Shown in pieces: positions 7,212-44,773 of a stretch of DNA of 44,773 bases (position 1 is its first letter; each line of letters starts with the position of its first letter). The notes under the pieces were generated by a model. It was not told where the DNA came from. It saw only the letters and a program-made list of their open reading frames with translations, and ran no database searches. Made by a program: the position numbers and the translations under genes. Source of the DNA: a virus; the IMG/VR virus record IMGVR_UViG_3300031576_000105, positions 1 to 44,773 of that record. One strand, written 5' to 3'.

Positions 7212-7217
7212 CTTCTT

Positions 7218-8564: not shown

Positions 8565-8565
8565 T

Positions 8566-8733: not shown

Positions 8734-8734
8734 T

Positions 8735-10840: not shown

Positions 10841-10863
10841 TTTATTAGTAATTATGTTATAAT
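10835..10863 (+). promoter_or_regulatory. Late promoter for first glycine-rich fibre
   Basis: TTGTAA at 10835-10840 (overlapping the stop of the upstream gene), a 17-nt spacer and TATAAT at 10858-10863 with TGT in front. The ATG follows after 8 nt. Confidence 0.72.
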
Positions 10864-10871
10864 ATAACGAA

Positions 10872-12884: not shown

Positions 12885-12886
12885 AT

Positions 12887-14179
12887 ATGGCAACAGGAAT
12901 ATATAAAAAAACAAACAGTCCTACAGCAATTTACGGAGAATCAAGTCCTGCTGTTTTAAAATTACAACAAGAATTAATTGCCAAAGGAGCACCCATTACT
13001 GCTGATTCTAAATACGGACCTCAAACACAACAATACTTTGACTTATATAACAAGCCAGTTGCAACTACTGTAACTACTCCTCCCCCAGATTCAGCTGCTG
13101 GTATACAGGGAAGTTTTAATTATGTTCAAAGTAAAGAAGATAAAGCAGAGGCTAGTGCTATGGCTGATTATTTGAAAATTTTAAAAACTGATGTAAGCCA
13201 GTCTATAGACCCAAATCAGATTTATCAACAAAACCTTAGTATGTTCCAGGGTCAAATTGATGCAATAAATAAAGTGTACAACGACCAACTTAATAAAGCT
13301 AGAATTGAAGGTGCTGGAAGACTTGAATCTCGTAAATTCTCACAAGGTCGTTCTGGTCAAGTAGGTTCAGGAACTGGAGAAGCTGGAGTGAACGCTGTTC
13401 AGGCTGCAAATAGAGATATTGAAAGTTCTATAGATAATGAAAGAAATTCTGCAATCGCTTCTATAATGGCTGGTGTTAGAAATAAGTCATCAGCAGACTT
13501 AGCAGCCAGAACTAAAGCAAAGAAAGAAGGTGCTGAGGCATTACTTAAATTTTATGATGAAGCTCCTGCTCGAAAAGCTAAAAAGGTTAATCCAGTAATA
13601 GCACAATTAGTATCTCTTGGAATTGACCCAGAACAAATGTCTGATGACGAAATAGAAGAATTAACAAGTGGTCTTGGTATTTCAAAAGAAGAGATAACAT
13701 CAGGTTATAAAGCTGCGGTAAAAGCTAGTGAAAAAGCAAAAGCAGATTCGGAAGCTGCTGCAATGAAAGCTCAACCAGCTGTAGTGCAAGAATATGAATA
13801 CGCCAAAAAGAATGGTTACACTGGTTCTTTTACACAGTATCAAAATGAAGACGCTAATCGTAAAGCAGTTGCAGCTCGTCAGCCAAAAGATTTGACTATT
13901 AGTGAGCAACACTTAACGACTATAAGTAATCTCTCACAACTATTTGTTCCTGGAGCAGTTATTCCAGGTAGTCAAGGAGTACCATTTATAGACAGCAATG
14001 GTTACGCAACCCCTCAGGGATTTAAGACTGCAATGGCAGCAGCTGCGCAAGACGGTCTACCACGAGCTGATTTTATAAAACAATTTGGATATACAATACC
14101 AACTGGACTTGAAACAAAGTTCGGTTTAACTCCAGCAGAAATCAAACTAATCACGGGAGCATTACCAGTTACTGAATAA
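12887..14179 (+). CDS. Virion protein with peptidoglycan-binding-like N-terminus
   Basis: 430 residues. Residues about 15-50 (SSPAVLKLQQELIAKG followed by a YGPQTQQYF segment) match the PG_binding_1 pattern, a three-helix domain that binds cell-wall peptidoglycan. The rest is long, helical and rich in Ala, Glu and Lys, like internal virion (ejection) proteins that leave the capsid with the DNA. It starts 3 nt after the fibre stop. A cell-wall-penetrating ejection role is inferred. The same type of domain occurs at the end of the endolysin at 25242. Confidence 0.65.
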   Translation: MATGIYKKTNSPTAIYGESSPAVLKLQQELIAKGAPITADSKYGPQTQQYFDLYNKPVATTVTTPPPDSAAGIQGSFNYVQSKEDKAEASAMADYLKILKTDVSQSIDPNQIYQQNLSMFQGQIDAINKVYNDQLNKARIEGAGRLESRKFSQGRSGQVGSGTGEAGVNAVQAANRDIESSIDNERNSAIASIMAGVRNKSSADLAARTKAKKEGAEALLKFYDEAPARKAKKVNPVIAQLVSLGIDPEQMSDDEIEELTSGLGISKEEITSGYKAAVKASEKAKADSEAAAMKAQPAVVQEYEYAKKNGYTGSFTQYQNEDANRKAVAARQPKDLTISEQHLTTISNLSQLFVPGAVIPGSQGVPFIDSNGYATPQGFKTAMAAAAQDGLPRADFIKQFGYTIPTGLETKFGLTPAEIKLITGALPVTE

Positions 14180-14183
14180 TTAA

Positions 14184-15722
14184 ATGTCGGCATCAAGTGA
14201 GTTACTAAAACAAGCCCTGCCCTCAACTGGAAATAAGAAGCAAGTTCCAGTAAGCAAGGTGGGTAGTGCTAGTGCTGCTTTACTACAAGCATCAGGTGTT
14301 TCTGCGGGCGGACTAAAATACGTTCCCCTAAAACCACCGCCATCTACAGTAGAGAAGCCCCAATCTCTTGGTAAACAAATTCTTGCTGGAATAGTAAAAA
14401 CACCCGCCAGACTAGCTACTAACTTAGTTCAAGCTGGTCAAATTGCAGTTGGTAAACCTCAAACTCAACCGTTCTCGGGAAAGTTTTTAGGTGAAGTAAA
14501 ACCAGTTGGAATGAGTGGAAACTTTGGAAAAGACCTTCAAGATGCTGTAGGTGCTGGTCTTGAAATTTCTTCTTATCTACCTTTTGCAAAAGGTATTTCA
14601 ACTGCTAGTAAATTATTCAAGAGTGCTAAGTGGTTAAAGTTTGCTGGACCACTTGCGGTAGAGGGTGCAGCTTCTGGTACATTGGCAAGTGGAGGATATG
14701 AAATTTCTAAACAGGCTACAACTGGAGAAAAAATAAATCCACTTAATATTGCACTGGGAACTGCTTTAGGAACTGTGGCTGGTCCAACCCTAGGGGGACT
14801 ATTTAGAGGTGTGGGAAAGATTTTTGGTAAAAAAACAACACCCAAAACTGTTTCTGTTGTTTCAGAAAGCGTTGAAACTAAAATTCCAGTAAGTACACCA
14901 AAAAGTAGATTTGATGCTTACAATAAGTCTCAGGGCTACGAACCATATTCTAAAGATGTTCCAGTGATAGATGCTGGAAAAGTAGAATCCAAACTACCAA
15001 CAATTCAAACAGAGCCTAAAAAAGACTTTACTGGTAAAATTCCTGGATATAAATATGAGCCAATTCCGACAGATAAGCCAGTAAATGTACCAGGAATTAA
15101 AGAAATTGAGCCAAACTACGCAAATGTTCCTGAAGGTCCAATTAGAAGCACTAATGTAAGTGCTAGACTACCGTCTACTAAAGGAACTACCATTACAAAA
15201 GCAGCGGATGATATTGATGTTAAACTTTCAAAAGAAGGGTTTAATAATCTAGCCCCAGAAGAGAAGGCTAAATTTAACTCTATTACAGAAAAAGAACAAA
15301 TTGCTCGTGTAAGTGCATTATTATCAAATACTACAGATGAGGCTGTAGAAATGGTTGCAACTGGTAAGAATATTCCAAAAGACATACATCCACAGGTTTT
15401 ATTTAACGCTGTTGAACGTAGAGCTATGGACAATTTAGAAAATGGTGGTGCAGAAGTTCTTAGACGATTAGCTCGGTCTCCTATTGCGACACAGGAAAGT
15501 TTAGCGGGTCAAACATTTAGAGCTAGTCAGATTTTAGAAAACAAATTGTCCCCATCTAAACTAATTGCAGAAAATGATAAAAGTATTGCTGAAAATATAC
15601 TTAAGAGAACTGGACAAAAAGTAGATGATATAGTAAAGAAAGAGGTGGATATTATTAAAGCAAAGAAACCACCCGTGAACAAACAAACCTTTGCAGAATT
15701 TATTAAAGATATAACTTGTTAA
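14184..15722 (+). CDS. Putative internal virion/ejection protein, part 1
   Basis: 512 residues, not recognised as an enzyme. A small Gly/Ala-rich hydrophobic segment near residues 155-210 may interact with membrane, and the C-terminal third is a charged helix. Large helical proteins in this position of podoviruses are usually ejected with the genome. The gene stops at 15720 and the next ORF begins 2 nt later in another frame, with similar composition. The two may be separate proteins or halves of one ancestral protein. Confidence 0.6.
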   Translation: MSASSELLKQALPSTGNKKQVPVSKVGSASAALLQASGVSAGGLKYVPLKPPPSTVEKPQSLGKQILAGIVKTPARLATNLVQAGQIAVGKPQTQPFSGKFLGEVKPVGMSGNFGKDLQDAVGAGLEISSYLPFAKGISTASKLFKSAKWLKFAGPLAVEGAASGTLASGGYEISKQATTGEKINPLNIALGTALGTVAGPTLGGLFRGVGKIFGKKTTPKTVSVVSESVETKIPVSTPKSRFDAYNKSQGYEPYSKDVPVIDAGKVESKLPTIQTEPKKDFTGKIPGYKYEPIPTDKPVNVPGIKEIEPNYANVPEGPIRSTNVSARLPSTKGTTITKAADDIDVKLSKEGFNNLAPEEKAKFNSITEKEQIARVSALLSNTTDEAVEMVATGKNIPKDIHPQVLFNAVERRAMDNLENGGAEVLRRLARSPIATQESLAGQTFRASQILENKLSPSKLIAENDKSIAENILKRTGQKVDDIVKKEVDIIKAKKPPVNKQTFAEFIKDITC

Positions 15723-15723
15723 T

Positions 15724-17523
15724 ATGATTTGTTTACCTAAAAAAATTGCAGATAATTTTATAAGAGGACTTCAGTCTGGTGGTTTAGATGTTGATAAGTT
15801 AGCTAAAATGTCTAGTACTGAAAGACAGAAAGCCATCGATCAGTTCGTTGGTACTGTTCCTTCGTCTAAAGTAAATGCCTTATTTGAAAAGAAACTTTTA
15901 CTTAAAAACCAGAATGATGCAATGATTAACTGGGTTAAGGAAGTTGCGGGTCTTAAACCAACTGTAAAAAGAGACTTACTATCACGAATAGACAGGTTAA
16001 ATAAAGTTTTAACACCAGACGAGGAAGATGCTTTCTTGGGAGACTTAGTATCGGAGAGACTCGGCACAAGAACAACATACGAACAAGCAGCACAAATCTC
16101 AAAACTATCTAAAGCGTTTCAAGAAGCAAAAGCAGACCCCAATAGTGGACTTAAATATGGAGCGTCTGAAGTTGAATTAAATAATTACATAAATGAACTT
16201 AGGTTAGCAAATGAGAAAGTCCCGATTAAACAAACACTTGGGTACTTTAAAACTAACCCAGTTGAAGCTACTGGTAAGACAATTTCGGAAGTCGCTGGGT
16301 TTACTAAGGGTATTAAGGCATCTACCGATGACTCAGCTATTTTCCGCCAAGGTTGGAAAACTCTTTTTACTAATCCACAAATCTGGGCGAAAAACGCTCT
16401 AAAATCTTTTTCAGATATTAAAAGGCAGTTAGTGAACGCCCCAATAAAACCAGGTCTATTTTCTGGTCAGGACAATATGGTTATAGATGGAGTAAAGGCG
16501 GAGATTTACTCTCGTCCTAATGGTCGAAACGGTCTATATAAGAAGATTAAACTTGATGTAGGAGACCTTGAAGAAGCCTTCCCAACTTCCCTACCTGAAA
16601 AAATACCTTTATTTGGGAGACTGTATAAAGCCTCAGAAGCTGCTTATACGGGGTTTCTATATCGTATGAGAGCAGATATAGCAGACAAGATAATAGATAT
16701 AGCAGAAGACCAGGGAGTAGATTTAACTCAGCAACTACAAGCAGAAAGTATCGGTAGGCTAGTAAATTCAATAACGGGTCGTGGTAGTTTGGGTGGAGGA
16801 CGTGCTGAAGCTGCTGGTAAAGTTTTGAACACGGTATTCTTCTCTCCTAAAATGTTGAAATCACAAATTGACTTCTTAACGACACCTTTGGGAATAGATA
16901 TAGCTGGTAATAGAGTTTCAAATTTCGCAGCAAAAGAAGCAGGAAAAAATGTTTTAAAAGTAGCATCTGGTATAGCTACAATTCTTGGTACAGCTTATGC
17001 ACTGAATCCTAAGTCAGTAGAACTCGACCCTCGTTCAGCTGACTTTGGTAAAATAAGAATTGGAGACACTAGATTTGATGTATCTGGTGGTTTAAGTTCA
17101 CTTTTGGTTCTTGCCACTCGTATGATAATTTCTCTTAAAAACACCAGTGAAACATTAACTGGTTTAGGTAAGGGAACTACACCAGCATATAAAAGCTCTA
17201 CAACTAAAAAATTAACTCAAATAAATCAAAAAAACAGGGATGGTAGCCCCAAATTTGGTGCTAAAACACTACAGGATGTTTACTATGACTTTGCTGAAAA
17301 TAAATTATCCCCACTTTTTTCAGTCTTTAATCAACTTGCTGCGAACCAAACTTTTGAAGGGGATATGCCAACTCCAGCAAGTCTAGTGAAAGATTTAACT
17401 CTTCCTCTAACGATTGACAACGTTTGGGGGGCTACTGAGAATGACAAAGCTGCGAATCTTCTTTTAATAGGTCTTGCGGAAACATTCGGTATATCAACCA
17501 ATACATATTCAAGAAAAAAATAA
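15724..17523 (+). CDS. Putative internal virion/ejection protein, part 2
   Basis: 599 residues beginning 1 nt after the previous stop, in a different frame. The N-terminal 100 residues are charged helices that would continue naturally from the C-terminus of the preceding product. A hydrophobic patch near residues 410-430 (ASGIATILGTAYAL) could insert into a membrane. No catalytic motif is recognised. Probably another ejection or inner-core protein. The start is the first ATG in frame; without an SD sequence it may depend on translational coupling. Confidence 0.6.
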   Translation: MICLPKKIADNFIRGLQSGGLDVDKLAKMSSTERQKAIDQFVGTVPSSKVNALFEKKLLLKNQNDAMINWVKEVAGLKPTVKRDLLSRIDRLNKVLTPDEEDAFLGDLVSERLGTRTTYEQAAQISKLSKAFQEAKADPNSGLKYGASEVELNNYINELRLANEKVPIKQTLGYFKTNPVEATGKTISEVAGFTKGIKASTDDSAIFRQGWKTLFTNPQIWAKNALKSFSDIKRQLVNAPIKPGLFSGQDNMVIDGVKAEIYSRPNGRNGLYKKIKLDVGDLEEAFPTSLPEKIPLFGRLYKASEAAYTGFLYRMRADIADKIIDIAEDQGVDLTQQLQAESIGRLVNSITGRGSLGGGRAEAAGKVLNTVFFSPKMLKSQIDFLTTPLGIDIAGNRVSNFAAKEAGKNVLKVASGIATILGTAYALNPKSVELDPRSADFGKIRIGDTRFDVSGGLSSLLVLATRMIISLKNTSETLTGLGKGTTPAYKSSTTKKLTQINQKNRDGSPKFGAKTLQDVYYDFAENKLSPLFSVFNQLAANQTFEGDMPTPASLVKDLTLPLTIDNVWGATENDKAANLLLIGLAETFGISTNTYSRKK

Positions 17524-17524
17524 C

Positions 17525-17553
17525 TTGTAGATTATCAATTTTTGTGTTATAAT
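17525..17553 (+). promoter_or_regulatory. Late promoter for collagen-like fibre
   Basis: TTGTAG at 17525-17530, a 17-nt spacer and TATAAT at 17548-17553 with TGT in front. The ATG is 9 nt downstream. Confidence 0.72.
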
Positions 17554-17562
17554 ATCAATTAA

Positions 17563-18633
17563 ATGCCACCCAAAGAAACAATAGAACAAGAAGAATTAGA
17601 ACCTATATTAGAGGCTTCTTTGAAGGTGAATAAGGAAGGACACGAAAATACGGGTCAGCTTCTTGAAAATATTATTCAACAAAATGATGCTAATAACCCT
17701 GAACCACTTTTGGAAGCAGGTATAGAGCAATCTAAAAAGAATACTGATAAAATTGTGGGTGCTGTTGAGAATTTAAATAAAAAACTAGAACCACAAGAAC
17801 TTGGTGATGGTAAAACTTTTATTGTCAAAGGAACAAAAGGAGACAAGGGTGATAAGGGAGAGAAGGGTGATGGGGGCGACAAGGGAGACAAAGGAGATTC
17901 TATCAAGGGAGATATTGGTATTCAGGGTGAAAAAGGTGATAAAGGAGAGACTGGTATCCAGGGTAAGAAGGGTGATGCTGGTTCAGATGGAGTAGACGGA
18001 AAAGATGGTAAAAATGGCGAAAAGGGCGATAAAGGAGAATCAGGAAAAGACGGAAAAAGTATTTCGGAAGAACTTGTTAAAAAATATGAAAAGAAAGTTA
18101 AAGATACACAGGAAAATTTACTTTGGGTAAATAATGGTGCTGTAAAGTCAGTTATAGCTGGTTCAAATATAACAGTAACTGGTGACCCACAAAATCCAAT
18201 TATATCTTCTACTGGTGGGGGTGGAGGTCATACCATAGAAGACGAGGGCACTCCATTCACTCAGAGAACTAAACTTAATTTTGTGGGTGCGGGGGTAACT
18301 GTAACTGATGATGTAGGTGATGATGCAACTGTAGTTACTATTCCGTCAGGAGGTTCAGGAATCACAAGAACTATTGTTACAACTTCAGGTAGTATAACAT
18401 TGGGTTCTGCTGCTCTTACCGATTATGTTTATTTGGTTGCTGGTTTACATACTATGAGTATGCCCGCTGCTGCTGGAAATACAAATAGATATACAGTAAA
18501 AAATAATCACTCTGTTGCGATTACGGTTGATACTGCTGGTGCAGAAAACATTGAAGGTGCTGCAAGTATAAGCGTGCAACCTGAAGATTCGGTAGATATT
18601 ATTAGCGACCTAACAAATTGGTATATTATATAA
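17563..18633 (+). CDS. Collagen-like tail fibre protein
   Basis: 356 residues in three parts: a helical N-terminus (about 1-85), a collagen-like region with uninterrupted Gly-X-Y triplets of the GDKGEKG type (about 88-165), and a beta-rich Gly/Thr C-terminal region (about 190-356) that resembles a fibre knob. Collagen-like triplets in phage fibres form trimeric rods. The gene sits in the fibre cluster with its own promoter. Function in adsorption is inferred. Confidence 0.8.
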   Translation: MPPKETIEQEELEPILEASLKVNKEGHENTGQLLENIIQQNDANNPEPLLEAGIEQSKKNTDKIVGAVENLNKKLEPQELGDGKTFIVKGTKGDKGDKGEKGDGGDKGDKGDSIKGDIGIQGEKGDKGETGIQGKKGDAGSDGVDGKDGKNGEKGDKGESGKDGKSISEELVKKYEKKVKDTQENLLWVNNGAVKSVIAGSNITVTGDPQNPIISSTGGGGGHTIEDEGTPFTQRTKLNFVGAGVTVTDDVGDDATVVTIPSGGSGITRTIVTTSGSITLGSAALTDYVYLVAGLHTMSMPAAAGNTNRYTVKNNHSVAITVDTAGAENIEGAASISVQPEDSVDIISDLTNWYII

Positions 18634-18646
18634 TTTGTGGTATAAT
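18618..18646 (+). promoter_or_regulatory. Late promoter for fibre-like gene
   Basis: TTGGTA at 18618-18623, a 17-nt spacer and extended TGGTATAAT with the hexamer at 18641-18646. The ATG is 12 nt downstream, the longest of the late set. Confidence 0.7.
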
Positions 18647-18658
18647 TAAGAATAATTT

Positions 18659-20476
18659 ATGGCATATGACCAAGTAAAACAATATAACGAAGACGACCCT
18701 CATACAACTGGAGATAAGGGTATGCAACTTCTTGCTGTAAGAAGTGATGCTGGAGCTGCTCTAGCTGCTAATGGAGATTATATTCCATTAATGGTTAATG
18801 CTTCAGGGGCACTTTTTGTGACTGGCGGAGGTGGGGGAACTGAATATACTGAAGATATAGCTGCTCCTGCTGACCCTGTTGGTGGGACTTTAATGATGAC
18901 TCGTGATGACCAACTTGCTACAGTCACAGAAATTGAAGGAGATTGGTCACGTCTACGAAGTACCTCAAAGGGAGCATTATGGGTTGCTTTAGCTGACTCA
19001 GCTGGAGACCCAATTACTTCTTTCGGTGGAGGAATACAATATACAGAAGGAGATATTGATGCTACTATAACGGGAACAGCAATGATGATGGAGGTTGCTG
19101 CCAATACACTACAACCAGTTCAAGGAACTGTAGCAGATGGGCTTTTAGTTAATTTGGGAACTAATAATGACGTAACTGTTGCGTCACTTCCACTTCCAAC
19201 TGGAGCTTCAACTTCAGCTAATCAAACTACAATAATTGGACACGTTGATGGTATTGAAGCCTTACTTACCACAATAGATACTGATACTGGAGATATTGCG
19301 GTTGATGCAGATGCAATTAGAATTGCCGTTCAACTTATTGATGACGCTGCTGTTGTTCTTGGAACTGCCACATATACTGAAGCTACTTCAACGGGATTAG
19401 CGATAGGTGCAGTAAGACGTGATGCTGATACTACACTTGTAAGTCTTACAAATGAGTGGGGTCCACTTCAAATGGATGCCAACGGAAGATTAAAAGTCGA
19501 AGTATTTTCTGGCGAAACTTTACCAGTATCTTTGGCTTCAACTACTATTACTGGAACTGTTGCTGTAACCCAATCTGGTGCGTGGGATGTCACTGTTGCT
19601 GAATTACCAGCTGCAGCTGCTATCACAGATAACTTTGCAAACCCAACTACAACAAGTGTAATGGCAATGAATATGGTTTGGGATGGTGCTACTTGGGATA
19701 GAGCAGCTGGAAACTCTGCAGATGGAACTTTGGTTAATCTTGGAACAAACAATGATGTGACTGTAACTGGTTCTGTTTCAATAACAGGTGCAGTAGACAC
19801 TGAACTTCCAGCTGCTGCTGCTTTAGCAGATGCAGCTTCAGCAGCTCCAACAACTCCAACGGTCGGTGCTATTGGTTTATTAATGAACGCTACAACTGTT
19901 GATAGACAACGAGCAGTTGTAAACGCCCTAAACTCGACTGGAACTGGAATCGCAGGGGCTGGATTAGTGGCACAATTTGATGATACTACACCAACCACGG
20001 TTACTGAAAATCAATTTGGTAATGTAAGAATGTCTGCAAATGGAGTTTTATATGTCGGGGGAAGTGTGGCTCAAGATATTGCAATAGCTGGAAATCCTAT
20101 GCCTTCTGGTTATAGAGCTAGTGCAGCTGAACCAACAGCTATGTCAGCAGACGGAGATGCAGTTTATCCTTGGGCTGACCGAAAAGGTAGAACTGTTGTT
20201 ACAATGCAAGCTGCAACTGGAACTCAAACTTCAGTGGCTGGTTCTGCAACCAACGTAACACTATTAGCTTCTAATACCTCAAGAAAAGGAGCGTTAATTT
20301 ACAACGACTCTACTGCTATATTATATGTTAGATTACAAGCGACTGCTACAACATCAAACTTCTCAGTAAAAATGTTTTCTGATGATACTTATGAAGTTCC
20401 TTTTGGATATACTGGAATTATAGATGGTATTTGGGCAAGTGCTGCGGGTAATGCAAGAATAACTGAAATAACATAA
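18659..20476 (+). CDS. Tail fibre-like virion protein
   Basis: 605 residues, acidic and rich in Ala, Thr, Val and Gly, with repeated segments of the type DGTLVNLGTNNDVTV (seen near 155 and 355) and ELPAAAA. This internal repetition is typical of long beta-structured fibres. The C-terminal part (from about residue 510) reads as a compact beta domain, as in phage structural proteins with a TSRKGALIYNDS segment. The stop overlaps the next start (TAATG). No enzyme motif. Confidence 0.7.
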   Translation: MAYDQVKQYNEDDPHTTGDKGMQLLAVRSDAGAALAANGDYIPLMVNASGALFVTGGGGGTEYTEDIAAPADPVGGTLMMTRDDQLATVTEIEGDWSRLRSTSKGALWVALADSAGDPITSFGGGIQYTEGDIDATITGTAMMMEVAANTLQPVQGTVADGLLVNLGTNNDVTVASLPLPTGASTSANQTTIIGHVDGIEALLTTIDTDTGDIAVDADAIRIAVQLIDDAAVVLGTATYTEATSTGLAIGAVRRDADTTLVSLTNEWGPLQMDANGRLKVEVFSGETLPVSLASTTITGTVAVTQSGAWDVTVAELPAAAAITDNFANPTTTSVMAMNMVWDGATWDRAAGNSADGTLVNLGTNNDVTVTGSVSITGAVDTELPAAAALADAASAAPTTPTVGAIGLLMNATTVDRQRAVVNALNSTGTGIAGAGLVAQFDDTTPTTVTENQFGNVRMSANGVLYVGGSVAQDIAIAGNPMPSGYRASAAEPTAMSADGDAVYPWADRKGRTVVTMQAATGTQTSVAGSATNVTLLASNTSRKGALIYNDSTAILYVRLQATATTSNFSVKMFSDDTYEVPFGYTGIIDGIWASAAGNARITEIT

Positions 20477-33034: not shown

Positions 33035-33040
33035 CTTTTG

Positions 33041-33114
33041 TGCCTCAGAGGAGAGTCGAACTCCTAAAATTTAGTTTCTAAAACTAACACGGTTACCAAT
33101 TACGTCACCGAGGC
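33041..33114 (-). tRNA. tRNA-Leu(UAG), short variable arm
   Basis: Acceptor GCCTCGG pairs with CTGAGGC. Anticodon loop TTTAGAA, T-arm AGGAG-TTCGACT-CTCCT. The variable region is only 5 nt, although bacterial leucine tRNAs normally have a long arm. Reads CUN if U34 superwobbles. Confidence 0.85.
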
Positions 33115-33148
33115 GTATTTCAGTTATCCTGTTTTCCCAGATAACTGA

Positions 33149-33231
33149 TGGCGGAAAGTCAAGGAATCGAACCTTGTTGGGTTTTACCCCACTGTTTTCA
33201 AGACAGTTAGTCACCATTGACCATACAATCC
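33149..33231 (-). tRNA. tRNA-Ser(UGA), long variable arm, CCA encoded
   Basis: Loop CTTGAAA gives UGA, with T-arm CAAGG-TTCGATT-CCTTG and a 14-nt variable arm with GGG/CCC pairing. Acceptor GGATTGT with ACTTTCC has two central U-U mismatches. Discriminator G and the CCA end are encoded. Confidence 0.82.
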
Positions 33232-33235
33232 ATTG

Positions 33236-33318
33236 CGGTAGGACTAGGATTTGCACCCAGAAGACTTTTACATCCGACAGTTTAGCGAACTGCTCGTTTA
33301 CTGTTCACGCACCCTACC
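33236..33318 (-). tRNA. tRNA-Ser(GCU), long variable arm
   Basis: Acceptor GGTAGGG/TCCTACC, discriminator G, 16-nt variable arm. Anticodon loop TCGCTAA has C instead of U at position 33, and the T-loop TGCAAAT lacks the TTC start. Reads AGY. Confidence 0.8.
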
Positions 33319-33403
33319 TGGTGCTGATTGTGAGAGTCGCACTCACGGCATCCGAAGACAACTGCTTTACAGGCAGTCTCCGCCCTCTACGGAATATGTC
33401 AGC
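33319..33403 (-). tRNA. tRNA-Tyr(GUA), long variable arm, CCA encoded
   Basis: Loop CTGTAAA gives GUA, with the long variable arm typical of bacterial Tyr and T-arm GTGAG-TGCGACT-CTCAC. Acceptor GCTGACA/AATCAGC is mismatched in its two inner pairs. Discriminator A followed by encoded CCA. Confidence 0.82.
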
Positions 33404-33407
33404 ATTG

Positions 33408-33478
33408 TGAATCCTGAAAGACTTGAACTTTCATAGACCGAGTAAGAGTCGGCTATTCTGCCATTGAATTAAGGATTC
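33408..33478 (-). tRNA. tRNA-Lys(CUU)
   Basis: Perfect acceptor GAATCCT/AGGATTC, loop CTCTTAC, T-arm GAAAG-TTCAAGT-CTTTC. The anticodon stem is 4 bp plus one mismatch. Reads AAG. Confidence 0.85.
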
Positions 33479-33479
33479 G

Positions 33480-33550
33480 TACGAGATAAGGGAATCGAAC
33501 CCCTGCCCGTGAGATGTAAGCTCACCGTTCTACCATTATACTAATCTCGT
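33480..33550 (-). tRNA. tRNA-Val(UAC)
   Basis: Acceptor ACGAGAT/ATCTCGT, loop CTTACAT, stem GTGAG/CTCAC, T-loop TTCGATT. The only Val tRNA, so U34 would have to read all GUN codons. Confidence 0.9.
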
Positions 33551-33554
33551 TTAT

Positions 33555-33573
33555 TCGTATCAAAATGATACGA
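33555..33573. promoter_or_regulatory. Intercistronic hairpin in tRNA array
   Basis: CGTATC and GATACG pair around AAAAT. Lies between Val and Arg tRNAs and could mark a processing point. Confidence 0.5.
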
Positions 33574-33576
33574 TTG

Positions 33577-33648
33577 TGAAAAGTATAGGATTCGAACCTA
33601 TATCTGAGACGTTAGAACCGTCCCGCACTTCCATTGTGCTAACTTTCC
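33577..33648 (-). tRNA. tRNA-Arg(UCU)
   Basis: Acceptor GGAAAGT/ACTTTTC, loop GTTCTAA, T-arm ATAGG-TTCGAAT-CCTAT. The anticodon stem has one mismatch. Reads AGA and probably AGG. Confidence 0.85.
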
Positions 33649-33649
33649 G

Positions 33650-33720
33650 TAGCCGATATGGGTAATGCTCCCATTTTCTTTGCTTGAAGGGCAAACGTCC
33701 TACTTTTAGACGAATCAGCC
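33650..33720 (-). tRNA. tRNA-Glu(UUC)
   Basis: Acceptor GGCTGAT/ATCGGCT with wobble pairs, D-arm of the Glu type (TTCGTCTA). Loop CCTTCAA has C at position 33. T-loop AGCATTA is non-canonical. Confidence 0.82.
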
Positions 33721-33721
33721 G

Positions 33722-33792
33722 TAAGGTTAGTGGGTACTGCCCCCACATCTCTTGCTTGAGAAGCAAGCGAACTACTACTATTCGATAACCTC
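33722..33792 (-). tRNA. tRNA-Glu(CUC)
   Basis: Acceptor GAGGTTA/TAACCTT, loop TTCTCAA, perfect CTTGC/GCAAG stem, T-arm GTGGG-GGCAGTA-CCCAC with a non-canonical loop. Reads GAG. Confidence 0.83.
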
Positions 33793-33793
33793 G

Positions 33794-33864
33794 TCCATAA
33801 TGATGGAATCGAACCACCGTAACTAAAGTATCAGTTTAGTATTCTTCCATTAAATTAATTATGG
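33794..33864 (-). tRNA. tRNA-Ile(GAU)
   Basis: Perfect acceptor CCATAAT/ATTATGG, loop CTGATAC, stem CTAAA/TTTAG, T-loop TTCGATT. Reads AUY. Confidence 0.9.
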
Positions 33865-33865
33865 G

Positions 33866-33936
33866 TAGGAATGGAGGGTAATGCTCCCCCGTCCGAGAGG
33901 TATAAGCTCTCCGTTCTGCTTTTAAACTACATTCCT
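33866..33936 (-). tRNA. tRNA-Ile(UAU)
   Basis: Acceptor AGGAATG/CATTCCT, loop CTTATAC, stem GAGAG/CTCTC, T-loop AGCATTA (non-canonical). UAU reads AUA directly, avoiding the lysidine modification needed by CAU-type Ile tRNAs. Confidence 0.85.
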
Positions 33937-33940
33937 AATG

Positions 33941-34014
33941 TCGGTATAGCTGGAGTTGAACCAGCACTTTATGATTTTTGAAATCATTGTGTCTACCAGT
34001 TGCACCATATACCG
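33941..34014 (-). tRNA. tRNA-Leu(CAA), short variable arm
   Basis: Perfect acceptor CGGTATA/TATACCG, loop TTCAAAA, T-arm GCTGG-TTCAACT-CCAGC. The D-arm carries GGTAGACAC as in leucine tRNAs, but the variable region is only 5 nt. Reads UUG. Confidence 0.85.
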
Positions 34015-34018
34015 ATTG

Positions 34019-34091
34019 TCCGCCTAGCTAGATTCGAACTAGCACTTGAGTGGTTTTAAATCACTTGCCTCTACCGTTGGGCTAAAGGCGG
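34019..34091 (-). tRNA. tRNA-Leu(UAA), short variable arm
   Basis: Acceptor CCGCCTT/TAGGCGG with one mismatch, loop TTTAAAA, T-arm GCTAG-TTCGAAT-CTAGC, variable region of 5 nt. Its 5' end lies 2 nt from the RNase P RNA 3' end. Reads UUR. Confidence 0.85.
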
Positions 34092-34093
34092 AT

Positions 34094-34337
34094 ATTGTGT
34101 CTATAAGCGGGATTCTGTTTTAGACGAAATTTACCTTGATTTAATGTCGCCATTAAATTCTTTGCAGTTCTCCAGTTTCCTGGCACGACTTTGCACTCTC
34201 GTAAATATTTTGCCGTTTCACCCGAACTAAATCGGTTCGTCACTGTTCGCAATTCGCATCTTACGATGGACAGGTGTTACCTGCTACGAAATTGAGTGTC
34301 CCGACTTTCCTCTCCGTGAAGTATCGTCCGACACAAT
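34094..34337 (-). ncRNA. rnpB: RNase P RNA (phage-encoded, compact type A-like)
   Basis: A 244-nt catalytic RNA that removes 5' leaders from tRNA precursors together with a protein subunit, here presumably the host's. Conserved regions are clear in order: GAGAGGAAAGTCGGGAC (CR I), AGCAGGTAACACCTG, GGGTGAAACGGC (CR II-III), AAGGTAAAT (the L15 GGU that binds tRNA CCA) and ACAGAATCCCGCTTATAG (CR V). P1 is a perfect 8-bp ATTGTGTC/GACACAAT; P2 is GACGA/TCGTC. In P4, CGGGA pairs with TCCCG where E. coli has CCGGG/CCCGG, a compensatory change that argues for selection. It is about 130 nt shorter than the E. coli RNA. It sits 1-2 nt from the flanking tRNAs, so RNase P cleavage of tRNA-Leu would release its own 3' end. 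Confidence 0.94.
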
Positions 34338-34338
34338 G

Positions 34339-34412
34339 TGCTATGACGTGGAGTTGAACCACAACCTTCTGTTTTTCAGACAGATGTGCAGATACCGCTA
34401 CACCATCAGAGC
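34339..34412 (-). tRNA. tRNA-Phe(GAA)
   Basis: Acceptor GCTCTGA/TCATAGC with one mismatch, loop CTGAAAA, stem TCTGT/ACAGA, T-loop TTCAACT. Lies 1 nt upstream (in transcription) of the RNase P RNA. Confidence 0.87.
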
Positions 34413-34416
34413 ATTG

Positions 34417-34488
34417 AGCTATATAGTGGAATCGAACCACTCCGTGTCCGCTTTGCAGGCGGATGCCTTACCATTTGGCTAATATAGC
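34417..34488 (-). tRNA. tRNA-Cys(GCA)
   Basis: Perfect acceptor GCTATAT/ATATAGC, loop CTGCAAA, stem TCCGC/GCGGA, T-loop TTCGATT. The discriminator is U, as required for CysRS. Confidence 0.92.
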
Positions 34489-34537
34489 AATCAGGGTTTT
34501 TTTCACGATTGTAAAAACACGCCTGCAAAAAACGCTG

Positions 34538-34608
34538 AGCCTCATCTGTGAATCGAACACAGGTAGATAGTTTACAAAACTATTGTTCTGCCACTGAACT
34601 AACAAGGC
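34538..34608 (-). tRNA. tRNA-Thr(UGU)
   Basis: Acceptor GCCTTGT/ATGAGGC, loop TTTGTAA, stem ATAGT/ACTAT, T-loop TTCGATT. The only Thr tRNA of the set. About 50 nt without features separate it from the Cys gene. Confidence 0.88.
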
Positions 34609-34609
34609 G

Positions 34610-34679
34610 TTGCGGGTACGAGTTTCGCACTCATCTATCAGGCTTATGAGACCCAATTCATCACTAGATGAAACCCACA
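34610..34679 (-). tRNA. tRNA-Met(CAU), atypical
   Basis: Acceptor TGTGGGT/ACCCGCA, loop CTCATAA (canonical Met). The anticodon stem is made of weak wobble pairs, the D-arm is very short (CATC/GATG) with no GG, and the T-loop is TGCGAAA. The first pair is U-A, unlike typical initiator tRNA. It is the only CAU gene found. Confidence 0.72.
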
Positions 34680-34681
34680 GG

Positions 34682-34752
34682 TGAATCTGAATGGAATCGA
34701 ACCATTGTGGACTGTTTAAAAGACAGCTATAATACCATTATATTACAGATTC
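34682..34752 (-). tRNA. tRNA-Lys(UUU)
   Basis: Perfect acceptor GAATCTG/CAGATTC, loop CTTTTAA, T-arm AATGG-TTCGATT-CCATT. One mismatch in the anticodon stem. Confidence 0.87.
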
Positions 34753-34778
34753 AAAACATAAATTGTCAAAGAAACTTG

Positions 34779-34851
34779 GGTGTTATGAGAGATTCGAACT
34801 CTCGATAATTCCTTCACAGGGAACTGTGTTACCAACTACACCAATATCACC
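34779..34851 (-). tRNA. tRNA-His(GUG)
   Basis: Acceptor GTGATAT/ATAACAC with one mismatch, loop CTGTGAA, T-loop TTCGAAT. An extra G at position -1 faces C73, the His identity pair. Confidence 0.9.
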
Positions 34852-34867
34852 ATATTAATTTCTTTCT

Positions 34868-34940
34868 ATACGCCATAGACATTCTTTCGAACGAAGGTGG
34901 TTGGCGAGACCATTCCATTAACTACTTCATCCCGTAACAG
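34868..34940 (-). pseudogene. Degenerate tRNA-like element (CGC in loop)
   Basis: GGT-CTCGCCA-ACC resembles an anticodon arm (CGC, Ala-type) and TTCGAAA a T-loop, but the T stem is only 3 bp and no acceptor stem longer than 4 bp forms. Either a decayed tRNA gene or a tRNA with an unusual fold. Edges are approximate. Confidence 0.35.
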
Positions 34941-34953
34941 GACTTTTCATCTG

Positions 34954-35024
34954 CGACTCTACCGAGAATTGCACTCGGACTCCTTCCGTGACAGGGAAGC
35001 GTGATTCTATTTCACCATAAAGTC
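34954..35024 (-). tRNA. tRNA-Asp(GUC)
   Basis: Acceptor GACTTTA/TAGAGTC, loop CTGTCAC, stem CTTCC/GGAAG, discriminator G as expected for Asp. T-loop TGCAATT is non-canonical. Confidence 0.88.
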
Positions 35025-35028
35025 ATTG

Positions 35029-35099
35029 CTCATCGGCTTGGAATCGAACCAAGATTTAATGATTAACAGTCAATCGTAATACCATTATACCACTGATGA
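35029..35099 (-). tRNA. tRNA-Asn(GUU)
   Basis: Acceptor TCATCAG/CCGATGA (6 of 7 pairs), loop CTGTTAA, discriminator G as expected for Asn, T-arm CTTGG-TTCGATT-CCAAG. One mismatch in the anticodon stem. Confidence 0.86.
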
Positions 35100-35104
35100 G
35101 TATT

Positions 35105-35122
35105 CTGGGGTATACACCCCAG
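35105..35122. promoter_or_regulatory. Strong intercistronic hairpin
   Basis: CTGGGGT and ACCCCAG pair around a 4-nt loop. No T-run on the transcribed strand, so a processing or stabilising element is more likely than a terminator. Confidence 0.55.
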
Positions 35123-35124
35123 TG

Positions 35125-35196
35125 TGAGCCGAGAAGGAGTCGAACCTTCATTTAATAGTTTCGAAGACTATTGTACTTCCTTTATACTATCAGCCC
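35125..35196 (-). tRNA. tRNA-Arg(UCG)
   Basis: Acceptor GGGCTGA/TCGGCTC, loop CTTCGAA, stem ATAGT/ACTAT, T-loop TTCGACT. A UCG anticodon (not the usual A/inosine-34 ACG) would read CGN by superwobble. Confidence 0.88.
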
Positions 35197-35197
35197 G

Positions 35198-35269
35198 TTC
35201 GGGAAATTGGATTCGAACCGCATATTTCTTGGTTCAGAGCCAAGCGTACTACCATTATACGATTCCCGA
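35198..35269 (-). tRNA. tRNA-Gln(CUG), weak T stem
   Basis: Perfect acceptor TCGGGAA/TTCCCGA, loop CTCTGAA, stem CTTGG/CCAAG. The T stem keeps only two pairs around TTCGAAT, so it may be partly decayed. Confidence 0.78.
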
Positions 35270-35292
35270 ATATTATCGCTATTACTAGCTTG

Positions 35293-35363
35293 TTGCGAAA
35301 TTTGGACTCGAACCAAAATTAAATGTTTCAAAGACATTCTTCCTACCCTTAGAAGACTTCGCA
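35293..35363 (-). tRNA. tRNA-Gln(UUG)
   Basis: Acceptor TGCGAAG/TTTCGCA, loop CTTTGAA, stem AATGT/ACATT, T-arm TTTGG-TTCGAGT-CCAAA. Confidence 0.88.
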
Positions 35364-35379
35364 ATATTTAAAAGAACAG

Positions 35380-35450
35380 TCAAGATAGGGGGATTCGAAC
35401 CCTCGCAACAAAGTCCCAAACTTTGCGTGCTACCACTACACTATATCCTG
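35380..35450 (-). tRNA. tRNA-Pro(UGG)
   Basis: Acceptor CAGGATA/TATCTTG, loop TTTGGGA, stem CAAAG/CTTTG, T-loop TTCGAAT. The only Pro tRNA. A short T-arm-like fragment at 35451-35478 next to it may be a remnant of another tRNA. Confidence 0.88.
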
Positions 35451-35478
35451 TGATGGGCGGAATTGCATCCGACCCTTG

Positions 35479-35550
35479 TGCAACGCTTGGGACTTGAACC
35501 CAACTTCTCTGCTTGGAAGGCAGACGTGTCGCCATCTACACTTGCGATGC
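35479..35550 (-). tRNA. tRNA-Gly(UCC)
   Basis: Acceptor GCATCGC/GCGTTGC (one mismatch), loop CTTCCAA, stem TCTGC/GCAGA, T-arm TTGGG-TTCAAGT-CCCAA. The only Gly tRNA, so UCC must read GGN. Confidence 0.87.
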
Positions 35551-35556
35551 TTTCAT

Positions 35557-35645
35557 CCGATGGTCTACAGTTTTGCTAGACAGTTCCCCGTCGGAAACTA
35601 TCCGTGAATCACTTGACCGTGAGGGGAGTTTCCTCCCACCATCGG
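35557..35645 (-). ncRNA. Five-helix tRNA-like RNA with UCA in a loop
   Basis: 89 nt that fold as a class II cloverleaf: closing stem CCGATGG/CCATCGG, GGGAG-GAAA-CTCCC (D-arm position), TCAC-GGTCAA-GTGA (anticodon position), CGGA-TAGTT-TCCG (variable arm) and GTCTA/TAGAC (T-arm position). Compared with real tRNAs, the anticodon loop has 6 nt and the T-loop is not of TTC type. The short D loop and long variable arm recall tRNA-Sec, but U33 is missing. Could also be an unrelated structured RNA. Confidence 0.5.
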
Positions 35646-35649
35646 AATG

Positions 35650-35718
35650 CAAGCTCATACAGAATCGAACTGTATCATAGGCGTTTGGAGTGCCTTTTGC
35701 TACCATAGCATTGAACTT
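35650..35718 (-). tRNA. tRNA-Trp(CCA)
   Basis: Perfect acceptor AAGTTCA/TGAGCTT, loop CTCCAAA, discriminator G as expected for Trp, T-arm TACAG-TTCGATT-CTGTA. Very short D-arm (GCTA-TGG-TAGC). Its 5' end overlaps the HNH stop codon by 2 nt. Confidence 0.85.
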
Positions 35719-36058
35719 ATTTATACCCTAATTGTTTTGCAGTTCTAACTCGATGACAATTAGCACAAACAACATCACATTTTTTAATTTCTTCCTGCAA
35801 TTTCTTCCAACTTCCCCTCATAATCCTTGAATTTATGCTCCCGAGTTTTTGTTTCTGGTCTCGGTGGTCAAAATCCATAACATAAGAAGGATATTTAATA
35901 TTACAATCATTACAAGGAACATCTTTGATAGATTTAAGGTATACCCTCATCCTATCTTTTTTTATTTCATTATTACGATAATATTGCTCCCTATTATTTT
36001 CATAATGTTTTCTACGAGCAATCCTGGCTCTTTCATCATCTTTGTTTTTGTATGCCAT
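35717..36058 (-). CDS. Free-standing HNH endonuclease inside the tRNA array
   Basis: 113 residues: a long basic helical N-terminus (RIARRKHYENNREQYYRNN), CNDC near residue 49, the catalytic MDFDHRDQK near 66, and VVCANCHRVRTAKQ at the C-terminus. It lies between tRNA-Trp and tRNA-Ala, and has its own extended -10 promoter with ATG exactly 6 nt downstream. tRNA genes are common targets of homing endonucleases, so it may have inserted here and could help spread the array. Confidence 0.87.
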   Translation of the reverse strand: MAYKNKDDERARIARRKHYENNREQYYRNNEIKKDRMRVYLKSIKDVPCNDCNIKYPSYVMDFDHRDQKQKLGSINSRIMRGSWKKLQEEIKKCDVVCANCHRVRTAKQLGYK

Positions 36059-36064
36059 TGTATA

Positions 36065-36093
36065 ATTATAGCATATCTAAAGATAAAATCAAA
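36065..36093 (-). promoter_or_regulatory. Leaderless promoter for HNH gene
   Basis: TTTGAT at 36088-36093 (minus sense), a 17-nt spacer and extended TGCTATAAT with hexamer at 36065-36070. The ATG is 6 nt downstream. Confidence 0.8.
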
Positions 36094-36109
36094 GCTTTGG
36101 ATTCCCGTG

Positions 36110-36181
36110 TGGACCGTAACGGTTATGCTCCGTTGCTTGCTCATTGCAAATGAGCTGTGCTACTATTATCACTAACAGCCC
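36110..36181 (-). tRNA. tRNA-Ala(UGC)
   Basis: Acceptor GGGCTGT pairs with ACGGTCC and has the G3-U70 wobble, the universal Ala identity element. Loop TTTGCAA, stem GCTCA/TGAGC, T-arm AACGG-AGCATAA-CCGTT with the same odd T-loop type as the Glu and Ile genes. It overlaps the end of the ORF at 36141-36527. Confidence 0.88.
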
Positions 36182-36527
36182 TAATTTCTCCCATTAACCA
36201 ACCACTAAAGTTTTCTTTCCTATTACTCTTATCTCTTCCTATTGATAAGATGTAATATAAATCTTTTGTTGGAATATGAGCCAACATAACACAAAAAGAT
36301 TTAATACTTCTAGTCTTTAAGTGTATCTTGGTTTTCTTGAACTCTTGTATTTTTAAAGGACTTGCCTTATACCTATTTTCCCTTAACCACTTTACATATC
36401 TTTTCCAGTTTTCTTTTCTGGTGGATTCTCTATAAAATCCGTAAACTTCATCTAACACTTCTCCACGTTCTGACCGAAACTTCGGAGTATTATCTTTGGG
36501 CTTTAATAATTCTCCCATGGAAAGCAT
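36141..36527 (-). CDS. Hypothetical early protein, first of the RNA operon
   Basis: 128 residues from the ATG at 36527, chosen because it lies 6 nt after TATACT; the ATG at 36533 would abut the -10 box. Basic and helical, with no recognised family. The last 13 codons and the TGA lie inside the tRNA-Ala gene, so the protein gene and the tRNA operon are fused in one transcript. It may be involved in tRNA handling or be merely co-transcribed. Confidence 0.6.
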   Translation of the reverse strand: MLSMGELLKPKDNTPKFRSERGEVLDEVYGFYRESTRKENWKRYVKWLRENRYKASPLKIQEFKKTKIHLKTRSIKSFCVMLAHIPTKDLYYILSIGRDKSNRKENFSGWLMGEIRAVSDNSSTAHLQ

Positions 36528-36533
36528 AGACAT

Positions 36534-36667: not shown

Positions 36668-36696
36668 ATTATACCACAGATGTAAAATAAAGACAA
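36668..36696 (-). promoter_or_regulatory. Promoter, extended -10, no DnaA box
   Basis: TTGTCT at 36691-36696 (minus sense), a 17-nt spacer and extended TGGTATAAT with hexamer at 36668-36673. Reads towards the tRNA operon. Confidence 0.72.
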
Positions 36697-40930: not shown

Positions 40931-42196
40931 ATGGAAGAAAAAATATACTGTGAGAAATGTAAAAAAGAAATTAAGTCGGATGATGTGTATGAGAATAATG
41001 ACGGGTTGAAGTATTGCGGTGATTGTTATGATGAGTTGTTTTATGAGTGTCATGATTGTAATGAGGAAACTAGCACAGACGAACGGAATATATGCTATGA
41101 TGATTATAGTGTGTGCGACACTTGCAGAGATGATTATAGTTATTGCGAGAATTGCGGTTGTTATGTAAATAGTGATGATTATGCTGGGGATGGTTTGTGT
41201 AATAGTTGCCACGATAATGATGATAATGAGGATAGTGATAGTGGGGGCGAAAGACATTATGACAAAGGTAATACATATTGTAGTGAAAAGGGTCGGGCGT
41301 ATGCGGTAGAGATTGAAACTAACTATGACGAAACAGACGACAGACGGCATTTATTTAATTTGCCGTATGAGGTCGGGATAACTGATGACGGGTCGCTGGG
41401 GTCGCACGGGGTAGAATTGCAGACACCGAAATTAAGTGGGGTCAAGGGTGATGAGTTGCTTAAAAAAATATGTAAGCACTTAAACGATAATAACTTTTCT
41501 GTTGATAGACAATGCGGATTACATATACATATAGACACAGCAGATTTTTTTGAGGTGGACGATAGATACATAAGAGAAAATCATTATTCTAGTGATACAC
41601 CAGAAAAAGAGTTGTTGCTATATCAAAAGCGAGACAGGGAGCAGAAAATAGTCAATCGTATAAAAACACTGATGCTATTCTATATTGCTTTTGAGCCAGT
41701 TATTTATTCTTTTATGCCTATGGCACGCAGAACGAACCGATACTGCTATCCGCTATCAGAGTTTTATCACGAAAGCGAGATAACGAACGCAGACAGCTTG
41801 GAGGATTTAGAGACGATTTGGTATAGAGAGCAGAGCAAAGAAAAAAAAGCCGATAGGAAAAAAGAAAAGTATGATGAGACAAGATATGCTGGTTATAATT
41901 TTCATTGTATGTTGTCCGCTAAACATATTGAGAGCAGACATCATAGCGGAACGCTGGACTATAACAAAATGAAAAACTGGACTGAGTTAAACATCACCAT
42001 ATTAGATAATGTTATAGGTGAAAGAGTAAAAATGTCGGAATTAAAAATAATTAAACACGCTATTGATATATCACAAAAAACTAAACTTTTCTTTGATATG
42101 ATTGGAGTAAATAAAAAACTTCAGGCATATTTTCTAGCAAGGCAGAAAAAGTTTTGTGCTGGGTCAATCGCTAAACAAAACAAATGTGCGGAATAA
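40931..42196 (+). CDS. Zinc-finger amidoligase (COOH-NH2 ligase)
   Basis: 421 residues. Residues 7-93 hold repeated CxxC pairs resembling a LIM/RING-like zinc region. The second part is an amidoligase of the glutamine-synthetase-like fold: AVEIET (125-130), DDGSLG...GVELQTP (152-166), CGLHIHID (195-202), and a late HIESRHHSGTLDY. These enzymes join a carboxyl to an amine with ATP, making amide or isopeptide bonds. The start of the next gene, a glutamine amidotransferase, overlaps its stop, so glutamine-derived ammonia is the likely amine. Substrate unknown; comparative genomics has predicted such pairs to make modified peptides or cell-surface molecules. Confidence 0.84.
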   Translation: MEEKIYCEKCKKEIKSDDVYENNDGLKYCGDCYDELFYECHDCNEETSTDERNICYDDYSVCDTCRDDYSYCENCGCYVNSDDYAGDGLCNSCHDNDDNEDSDSGGERHYDKGNTYCSEKGRAYAVEIETNYDETDDRRHLFNLPYEVGITDDGSLGSHGVELQTPKLSGVKGDELLKKICKHLNDNNFSVDRQCGLHIHIDTADFFEVDDRYIRENHYSSDTPEKELLLYQKRDREQKIVNRIKTLMLFYIAFEPVIYSFMPMARRTNRYCYPLSEFYHESEITNADSLEDLETIWYREQSKEKKADRKKEKYDETRYAGYNFHCMLSAKHIESRHHSGTLDYNKMKNWTELNITILDNVIGERVKMSELKIIKHAIDISQKTKLFFDMIGVNKKLQAYFLARQKKFCAGSIAKQNKCAE

Positions 42197-43269
42197 TACA
42201 TTGTAAAAGAAAAGACGGGAAACTTGCGAACAAGCCGATATTAAAAAGGTTTGAGAAGCAAAAGAGCAGGGGCACAGAAGGCTTTGGTTTTATTGAGATA
42301 AATGACGGCATTGTCGGGGCGGAGATTAGAACACGGACAGAAAAAGAAATAAAAGAAAAGCTGGCACAATCCACAGCAACGGAGATAATGTTTCATCACC
42401 GAACGCCAACATCCACGCCTAACTTTATTGAAGCAACGCATCCGATAAAAGTTTCACATAAAAGTTTGATATATGACTACTATGTTATGCACAATGGGAT
42501 TATCAGTAATGATGATAAATTGCGAGATAAACACTTGGATAATGGTTTTATCTACACCACAGAGATTGTGAAGAAATGGATAACAAGCGGTAAGACATAT
42601 ATTGATAAGATGTGGAATGACAGCGAAGCACTAGCGATTGACTTTTGCCTAGCGATTGAGAAAGGCACAGAGATAACAGCAGAGGGCAGTATTGCTATGG
42701 TTGCCTTGCAGTTTTCTAAAAAGAACAGAAAGGCAGTCGCACTATTCTTTTGTAGGAACGCTGGCAATCCGTTGAAAGTTGAGGACGGAAAAGATTTTTT
42801 CTGTATATCCAGCGAGTCGGGAAAAGAAATACCGAAAGACACACTATACAGATTAGATTATGTAAAAGGCGAATTGCGATATGAGAAAAAGACAATCGGA
42901 AAGTTTATCTATGATTATGAGACGGGCTACGGATATAATGGTTATGCTGGTAGTTATAATTATATGGATTATGAAAATGATACTCCATATACACGCTGGG
43001 ACAAAAAAGGAAAGCCGAACGGGGAGGATGACTTTGATATGGAACTATGGGAGGAACGGCAGTTATTAGAAGATGATATGAGAGTGGCGGAAATGAACGG
43101 GGACTATGACGCTATGACGGATTTAGCAGTCAAGATTGAAGAGATTGATTTAGAGATAGCGGGGATTGATAGTGATGATATGGCGGAGGCAGAGGCAATG
43201 GAGGGTGATATTGAAAAGCTAGGGGTCGGGCATCATATAAACAAGAAAGCACAAAAACTGGGCTTTTAG
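42184..43269 (+). CDS. Class II glutamine amidotransferase
   Basis: 361 residues beginning MCGII, so Cys2 becomes the N-terminal nucleophile once Met is removed, as in GlmS or PurF-type Ntn hydrolases. Supporting motifs are FHHRTPTSTP (near 70-79) and MHNGIISND (near 101-109), plus a Gly/Glu-rich C-terminal region. It would release ammonia from glutamine for the overlapping amidoligase. The C-terminal 150 residues, with many Tyr, Asp and Glu, are not assigned. Start overlap of 13 nt indicates coupled translation. Confidence 0.87.
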   Translation: MCGIIHCKRKDGKLANKPILKRFEKQKSRGTEGFGFIEINDGIVGAEIRTRTEKEIKEKLAQSTATEIMFHHRTPTSTPNFIEATHPIKVSHKSLIYDYYVMHNGIISNDDKLRDKHLDNGFIYTTEIVKKWITSGKTYIDKMWNDSEALAIDFCLAIEKGTEITAEGSIAMVALQFSKKNRKAVALFFCRNAGNPLKVEDGKDFFCISSESGKEIPKDTLYRLDYVKGELRYEKKTIGKFIYDYETGYGYNGYAGSYNYMDYENDTPYTRWDKKGKPNGEDDFDMELWEERQLLEDDMRVAEMNGDYDAMTDLAVKIEEIDLEIAGIDSDDMAEAEAMEGDIEKLGVGHHINKKAQKLGF

Positions 43270-44646: not shown

Positions 44647-44773
44647 ATATAAGGGGCTAGTCCGCTTGTCAGCAGACGAGCTACAAGGCTCATAGCAGAG
44701 AGCATTTTCAAAAGAGATACATAGAGGCACTATGCACGAATAAACACTATGGCGAAGAAGATAGCGGGTAAAA
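44647..44773. repeat. Terminal direct repeat, right copy (circular assembly overlap)
   Basis: Identical to bases 1-127, as described for the left copy. Trimming one copy leaves a 44,646-base circle. Confidence 0.95.

Follow-up and report, generated by a model that had tools for sequence, protein, structure and literature searches.

A compact RNase P RNA in the tRNA array of a phage genome and its recurrence in the tRNA arrays of other viral records

The window analysed here, the whole 44,773 nt of the IMG/VR virus record IMGVR_UViG_3300031576_000105, carries 28 transfer RNA (tRNA) genes at positions 33040–36181, all of them on the minus strand, which together serve 20 amino acids with no anticodon occurring twice. 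The gap between tRNA-Phe(GAA) (34338–34412) and tRNA-Leu(UAA) (34018–34091) is filled by a ribonuclease P (RNase P) RNA of the compact bacterial class A, located at 34092–34339 on the same strand (Rfam span 34088–34339). Its 5' end abuts the 3' end of tRNA-Phe and its 3' end abuts the 5' end of tRNA-Leu(UAA). The initial annotation had dealt with the tRNA genes only and had overlooked this RNA, which is the main feature of the locus.

The match to the Rfam model RF00010 extends over the entire model (positions 1–367 of 367) with 84.5 bits and an E value of 2.8e-25. The motifs GAGGAAAGUC, ACAGNGA, GGUGAAA and ACAGAANNNNGCUUA, which we take to be the universally conserved core of RNase P RNA, are intact and the P4 pseudoknot keeps its bulged U. 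Pairing was found for the helices P1–P5, P7–P12, P15, P16 and P18, while P13, P14 and P17 were not seen in the window RNA. The closest relative, with 70% identity over 219 bases, is located in another phage record (L004), and the closest sequences outside phages are rnpB genes of Patescibacteria (L189, L181 and L186). With the compact rnpB genes of this group the window RNA has the core motifs, the P4 pseudoknot and a P18 with a GNRA-type loop in common; it differs from them by its location in a phage genome and within a tRNA array, by the lack of a protein gene and by the helices P13, P14 and P17 not being seen.

An alignment of five sequences, namely the window, phage L004 and three Patescibacteria rnpB genes, was used to look for compensatory changes. 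Changes on both sides occur in 42 of 66 base pairs, a value reached in none of 500 shuffles. The paired state is kept in 87.9% of the cells, compared to 35.7–41.4% in controls in which the partners were slid by one to three columns, and P4 is paired in all five sequences and 100% of its cells. When only the two phage copies are compared, 16 pairs have changed on both sides and still pair; four further pairs are changed on one side and remain paired, 32 are unchanged, seven break and seven fall into gaps.

IMG/VR was also scanned for the core motifs of RNase P RNA regardless of any tRNAs nearby, which yielded 76 records. Among these, 68 matched RF00010 at an E value of 1e-5 or better; the other eight had no match at this level and were excluded before the count. 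For 43 of the 68 records, same-strand tRNA genes lie on either side of the RNA and belong to an array of at least five, whereas no tRNA lies within chain distance in 15 records and the remaining 10 are intermediate. A viral RNase P RNA sits in a tRNA array more often than not. In the 43 regions, with a median of 26 tRNAs and 18 labels, 1141 of 1145 tRNAs are on the strand of the RNase P RNA. The next tRNA starts not more than 6 bases from the model end in 25 of them, the previous tRNA ends within 6 bases in 18, and both is true for 10. The RF00010 scores range from 21.6 to 263.7 bits, with 136 bits for L003; weak rows were kept (L058 with 21.6 bits and a match of 50 bases, L043 with 26 bits and L038 with 35.7 bits). 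The records include several near-copies (such as L009/L015, L010/L013 and L020/L036) and, therefore, we counted clusters: the 44 embedded RNAs, that of the window included, could be grouped at 75% identity into 29 or more clusters, a minimum number because the fragment L058 merged some of them. The close relatives of the window L005–L008 are short records without an RF00010 match. Five viral records of 56–389 kb (L018, L024, L026, L030, L031) have a compact RNase P RNA of 233–265 bases and no adjoining tRNA array.

At least 17 of the 44 embedded records have phage structural or packaging genes. The terminase family PF03237 matched 14 of the 48 array records, with one match below the cut-off and two of the records outside the embedded set, and matches to PHROG families revealed a tail sheath (L003), a tape measure (L004), terminases (L021, L043, L057, L071) and a portal protein (L034). 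This check covered a single terminase family, one to five open reading frames (ORFs) in 22 of the 43 records, and several fragments. The other scanned ORFs belonged to DNA polymerase, ribonucleotide reductase, chaperonin or other families or had no match. Relatives of window proteins in these regions are few, an endonuclease-like ORF and a phosphoesterase, with short matches to a tail-region protein and a nucleotide-enzyme protein; hence the carriers look diverse.

A compact motif pattern was found at 31 loci in GTDB genomes, mostly from Patescibacteria, Bacteroidales and Elusimicrobia. None of these 31 bacterial genes lies in a tRNA array, although a few of the flanks were short. At six loci from Bacteroidales or Paludibacteraceae (L160, L165, L169, L175, L183, L188) a single tRNA-Gly is located just upstream of rnpB. 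When nine RNase P queries were compared by blastn to annotated phage records, no annotated phage RNase P RNA was detected. The matches included five unannotated faecal contigs, of which three were inspected (L086 with one tRNA, L088 and L089 with none), two records named 'Acinetobacter phage MD-2021a' and two Tenacibaculum phage records. The Tenacibaculum phage match consisted of 28 bases under a tRNA. In the inspected Acinetobacter phage record, host-like genes lie next to a prophage integrase, so that it probably contains a host rnpB, and a further match was a Salmonella host record. Some records are thus really contaminated and, therefore, the array-embedded records were counted apart.

The tRNA genes of the window were identified with ARAGORN and Rfam, both of which report the majority of them. 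In ascending position, these are tRNA-Leu(UAG) at 33040–33114, Ser(UGA) at 33149–33231, Lys(CUU) at 33407–33478, Val(UAC) at 33479–33550, Arg(UCU) at 33576–33648, Ile(GAU) at 33793–33864, Leu(CAA) at 33940–34014, the two neighbours of the RNase P RNA, Cys(GCA) at 34416–34488, Thr(UGU) at 34537–34608, Lys(UUU) at 34680–34752, His(GUG) at 34778–34850, Asp(GUC) at 34953–35024, Asn(GUU) at 35028–35099, Arg(UCG) at 35124–35196, Gln(CUG) at 35197–35269, Gln(UUG) at 35292–35363, Pro(UGG) at 35379–35450 and Gly(UCC) at 35478–35550. With default settings ARAGORN predicts 21 genes, including Trp(CCA) at 35649–35718, and Rfam at its gathering scores 23; the union comprises 24 different genes. The three genes added by Rfam are Glu(UUC) at 33649–33720 (41.1 bits; ARAGORN at an 85% threshold), Glu(CUC) at 33722–33792 (48.5 bits; anticodon assigned by eye) and Ile(UAU) at 33862–33937 (49.2 bits; ARAGORN at 95%). 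Ala(UGC) at 36109–36181, which overlaps the 3' end of an ORF at 36141–36533, has 41.2 bits against a gathering score of 29, surfaces with laxer Rfam filters and is predicted by ARAGORN at 90%. Ser(GCU) at 33235–33318 is picked up by ARAGORN at 95%. Tyr(GUA) at 33319–33403 and a divergent Met(CAU) at 34609–34679, with a D loop of 4 bases as judged by eye, were predicted only by ARAGORN at 85%, together with six spurious matches elsewhere in the window. At the 90% threshold there were no matches outside the array. Tyr, Ser(GCU), Met and Trp were not reported by Rfam up to an E value of 10. The genes are clustered and co-oriented within a phage genome, as is typical for a phage tRNA array.

The array holds two further elements. 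At 35551–35648 on the minus strand a strongly folding RNA of 98 bases, likewise overlooked in the initial annotation, is found, with a closing stem CCGAUGGU/ACCAUCGG and a minimum free energy of -43.4 (z -5.53 compared to 200 shuffles). It has no match to an Rfam family and no blastn match among the fetched loci. The gap at 34853–34953 folds no better than its shuffles. An ORF at 35717–36058 on the minus strand resembles, by eye, an HNH endonuclease, for which Pfam gave no name; relatives of it are present in four regions of other RNase P RNA records (L103, L113, L146, L153).

The initial annotation had described 28 good tRNA genes on one strand, sufficient for all 20 amino acids, and all 28 could be located; the word good is generous for Tyr and Met. 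The claimed U34 anticodon in every four-codon box is confirmed, with one U34 reader per box. That the set can read all 61 sense codons holds under full superwobble (61 of 61) and depends on an unmodified U34; with plain reading of A and G it covers 45 of 61, leaving unread 24.2% of the 10,793 codons in 36 ORFs. The elongator tRNAs form a near-complete set, yet self-sufficiency goes too far, as neither a CCA-adding enzyme (PF01743) nor the RNase P protein RnpA had a match in the window, and only one of 21 window tRNAs has an encoded CCA. No aminoacyl-tRNA synthetase was among the scanned window proteins, which represent part of the ORFs. Completeness is also not unique to the window, since near-complete sets of tRNA labels are seen in other viral contigs chosen solely for their tight arrays, such as L194, L216, L247 and L252, which reach 20 labels each. 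The idea that phage tRNAs guard against the cleavage of host tRNAs has already been published in general terms (PMC12409363).

The first and last 127 bp of the window (1–127 and 44647–44773) are the same sequence. Because of this terminal repeat we take the record to be a complete phage genome of about 44,646 bases, which was probably assembled as a circle. The phage genes comprise a terminase (6.1e-111), a portal protein, a major head protein and an endolysin, and further genes encode an exonuclease subunit of DNA polymerase, a second exonuclease, a dATP/dGTP diphosphohydrolase and an amidoligase. Within 40931–43269 on the plus strand, the amidoligase gene adjoins a gene for a glutamine-amidotransferase-like protein. 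Upstream of the array there is a promoter-like site at 36668–36696 on the minus strand (TTGTCT-17-TATAAT, in which TG precedes the second hexamer), which is a consensus match only; 27 such sites were found in the stretch versus 17.2 expected from shuffles. Repeats with the DnaA-box-like word TTATCCACA occur around the array and the early genes, at 26974, 31486, 33016, 36561 and 38288.

Window positions 1–20000 matched 29 of 383 genomes, in all cases only over short or low-complexity stretches. One of these (G436) holds a syntenic prophage. On a contig of 409 kb five genes follow the gene order of the window, namely terminase (37%), portal protein (38% across 666 residues), head protein (40% across 406 residues) and two further genes at 32% and 37%, and there is a weaker sixth one. 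The prophage-like region, with head and tail genes ordered as in the window, spans C2:187444–199988 (L324); neither a tRNA array nor an RNase P RNA was found in 60 kb of this locus. A LOOT RNA (RF03000, 81 bits) is located downstream of it (L325, 17481–17598). The G436 genome belongs to the same GTDB class as the genomes with the rnpB genes L181 and L189, and its syntenic prophage suggests that the host of the phage is found among the Patescibacteria.

The RNase P protein RnpA (PF00825) was detected in none of the 48 array records, the complete window among them, while the control search was positive in 10 of 14 known genomes. A holoenzyme encoded in cis was thus not found. The CCA-adding domain PF01743 is present in eight of the 48, the window not being one of these, and six of the eight have CCA-poor arrays (L009, L028, L032, L057, L060, L068).

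These arrangements are best explained by a tRNA-supply cassette which brings its own processing ribozyme and would use the RnpA of the host, a reading to which we assign a probability of roughly 60%. A single long transcript would carry the tRNAs together with the RNase P RNA, and the latter would pair with host RnpA. The tRNA genes are tightly packed, some without any spacer, so that cleavage by RNase P at the 5' ends would be what separates them. At tRNA-Leu(UAA) the same cut would also release the 3' end of the RNase P RNA itself. In this way the phage may be freed from the supply of host RNase P RNA at the time when it fills the cell with tRNA precursors. In its wider form, that many unrelated phages include a trans-acting RNase P ribozyme in their tRNA transcript, as a self-processing cassette lacking only the host protein, we consider the proposal slightly better than an even bet.

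Several points weigh against this interpretation. The RF00010 score of the window RNA does not reach the curated gathering score of 100, and for that reason a default Rfam search does not list it. P2 is paired in just 43.3% of the cells, perhaps partly through misalignment. By eye, the UGG motif in L15 that binds CCA, which is usual and not universal, is absent; the three aligned Patescibacteria sequences are alike in this respect, and of the CPR (Candidate Phyla Radiation) RNase P RNAs covered by PMC8172020, 23 of 35 are without UGG and scores fall below cut-offs. An adjustment of L15 to the encoded CCA, considered across the embedded records including the window, was not supported: with L15 read by eye and the mixed-CCA records L048, L054, L079 and L081 excluded, GGU is kept in 21 of 24 CCA-rich versus 11 of 16 CCA-poor records (Fisher p 0.23). 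In a reverse control based on 50 of 80 listed viral records with three tightly spaced tRNA T loops, an RNase P RNA was found in only one (L243, near many tRNAs, L313). Most phages that have tRNA arrays therefore do without it, and the feature is rare in this group, perhaps at the level of a few per cent. Moreover, the host must already possess RNase P, and both the expression of the phage RNA and its catalysis are predictions from sequence.

Three other explanations have to be considered. The phage could make good the loss of RNase P RNA and tRNAs when these are degraded, or their synthesis ceases, in the infected cell, as the initial annotation had proposed for the tRNAs. The near-complete tRNA sets that accompany the RNase P RNA, 28 unique tRNAs for 20 amino acids in the window and a median of 26 tRNAs in the 43 regions, fit such a backup, which we nevertheless regard as unlikely: no host nuclease directed against RNase P RNA is known to us, no host genome having been searched for one, and replacement may be the same function as supply, viewed from another side. 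Still somewhat less probable is that a host rnpB was captured along with tRNA genes and retained without benefit. Phage arrays readily gain and lose tRNAs, and with Patescibacteria rnpB as the closest non-phage sequences the RNA is probably derived from a host; yet the core is intact, compensatory changes separate the phage copies, the same embedding recurs in all those clusters, and its absence from the bacterial loci indicates that the arrangement probably originated within phage genomes. Least probable of all is a decoy that soaks up RnpA or precursor tRNAs, slowing host tRNA maturation in favour of the phage tRNAs, for although even a working copy must compete with the host RNase P RNA for RnpA, which was found in none of the 48 records, a decoy has no need of the catalytic P4 core, which is intact, bulged U included, and paired throughout the alignment.

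Many tRNA genes on the same strand, as in the window, are known from the arrays of T4, T5 and the huge phages. T4 uses the RNase P of its host for its tRNAs. Huge phages have been described to possess CCA-adding enzymes and other translation genes (PMC7162821); the term 'RNase P' is absent from the main text of that paper. A description of a phage-encoded RNase P RNA was not found in searches of the open-licence PMC literature, with preprints and closed papers outside this scope, and the novelty of such RNAs in tRNA arrays is provisional.

A comparable division of labour exists in organelles. In some plastids and mitochondria a small genome has retained the RNase P RNA together with tRNAs, and the protein is provided by another genome; in the present case it is a phage that carries the RNA, and its host cell would supply the protein. 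RNase P RNAs of plastids and of the chromatophore are among the subjects of PMC4264200.

RNase P RNA counts as a near-universal ribozyme of cells, and its presence is no proof that a contig is cellular. If the proposed cassette is real, a natural trans-acting ribozyme would be added to the inventory of viral genomes, and the compact forms of about 230–350 bases could be used for the study of minimal enzymes. The purpose of large phage tRNA sets would become testable. The translation kit of viruses would then extend to tRNA maturation, and the virus would control the maturation of its tRNAs as well as their supply.

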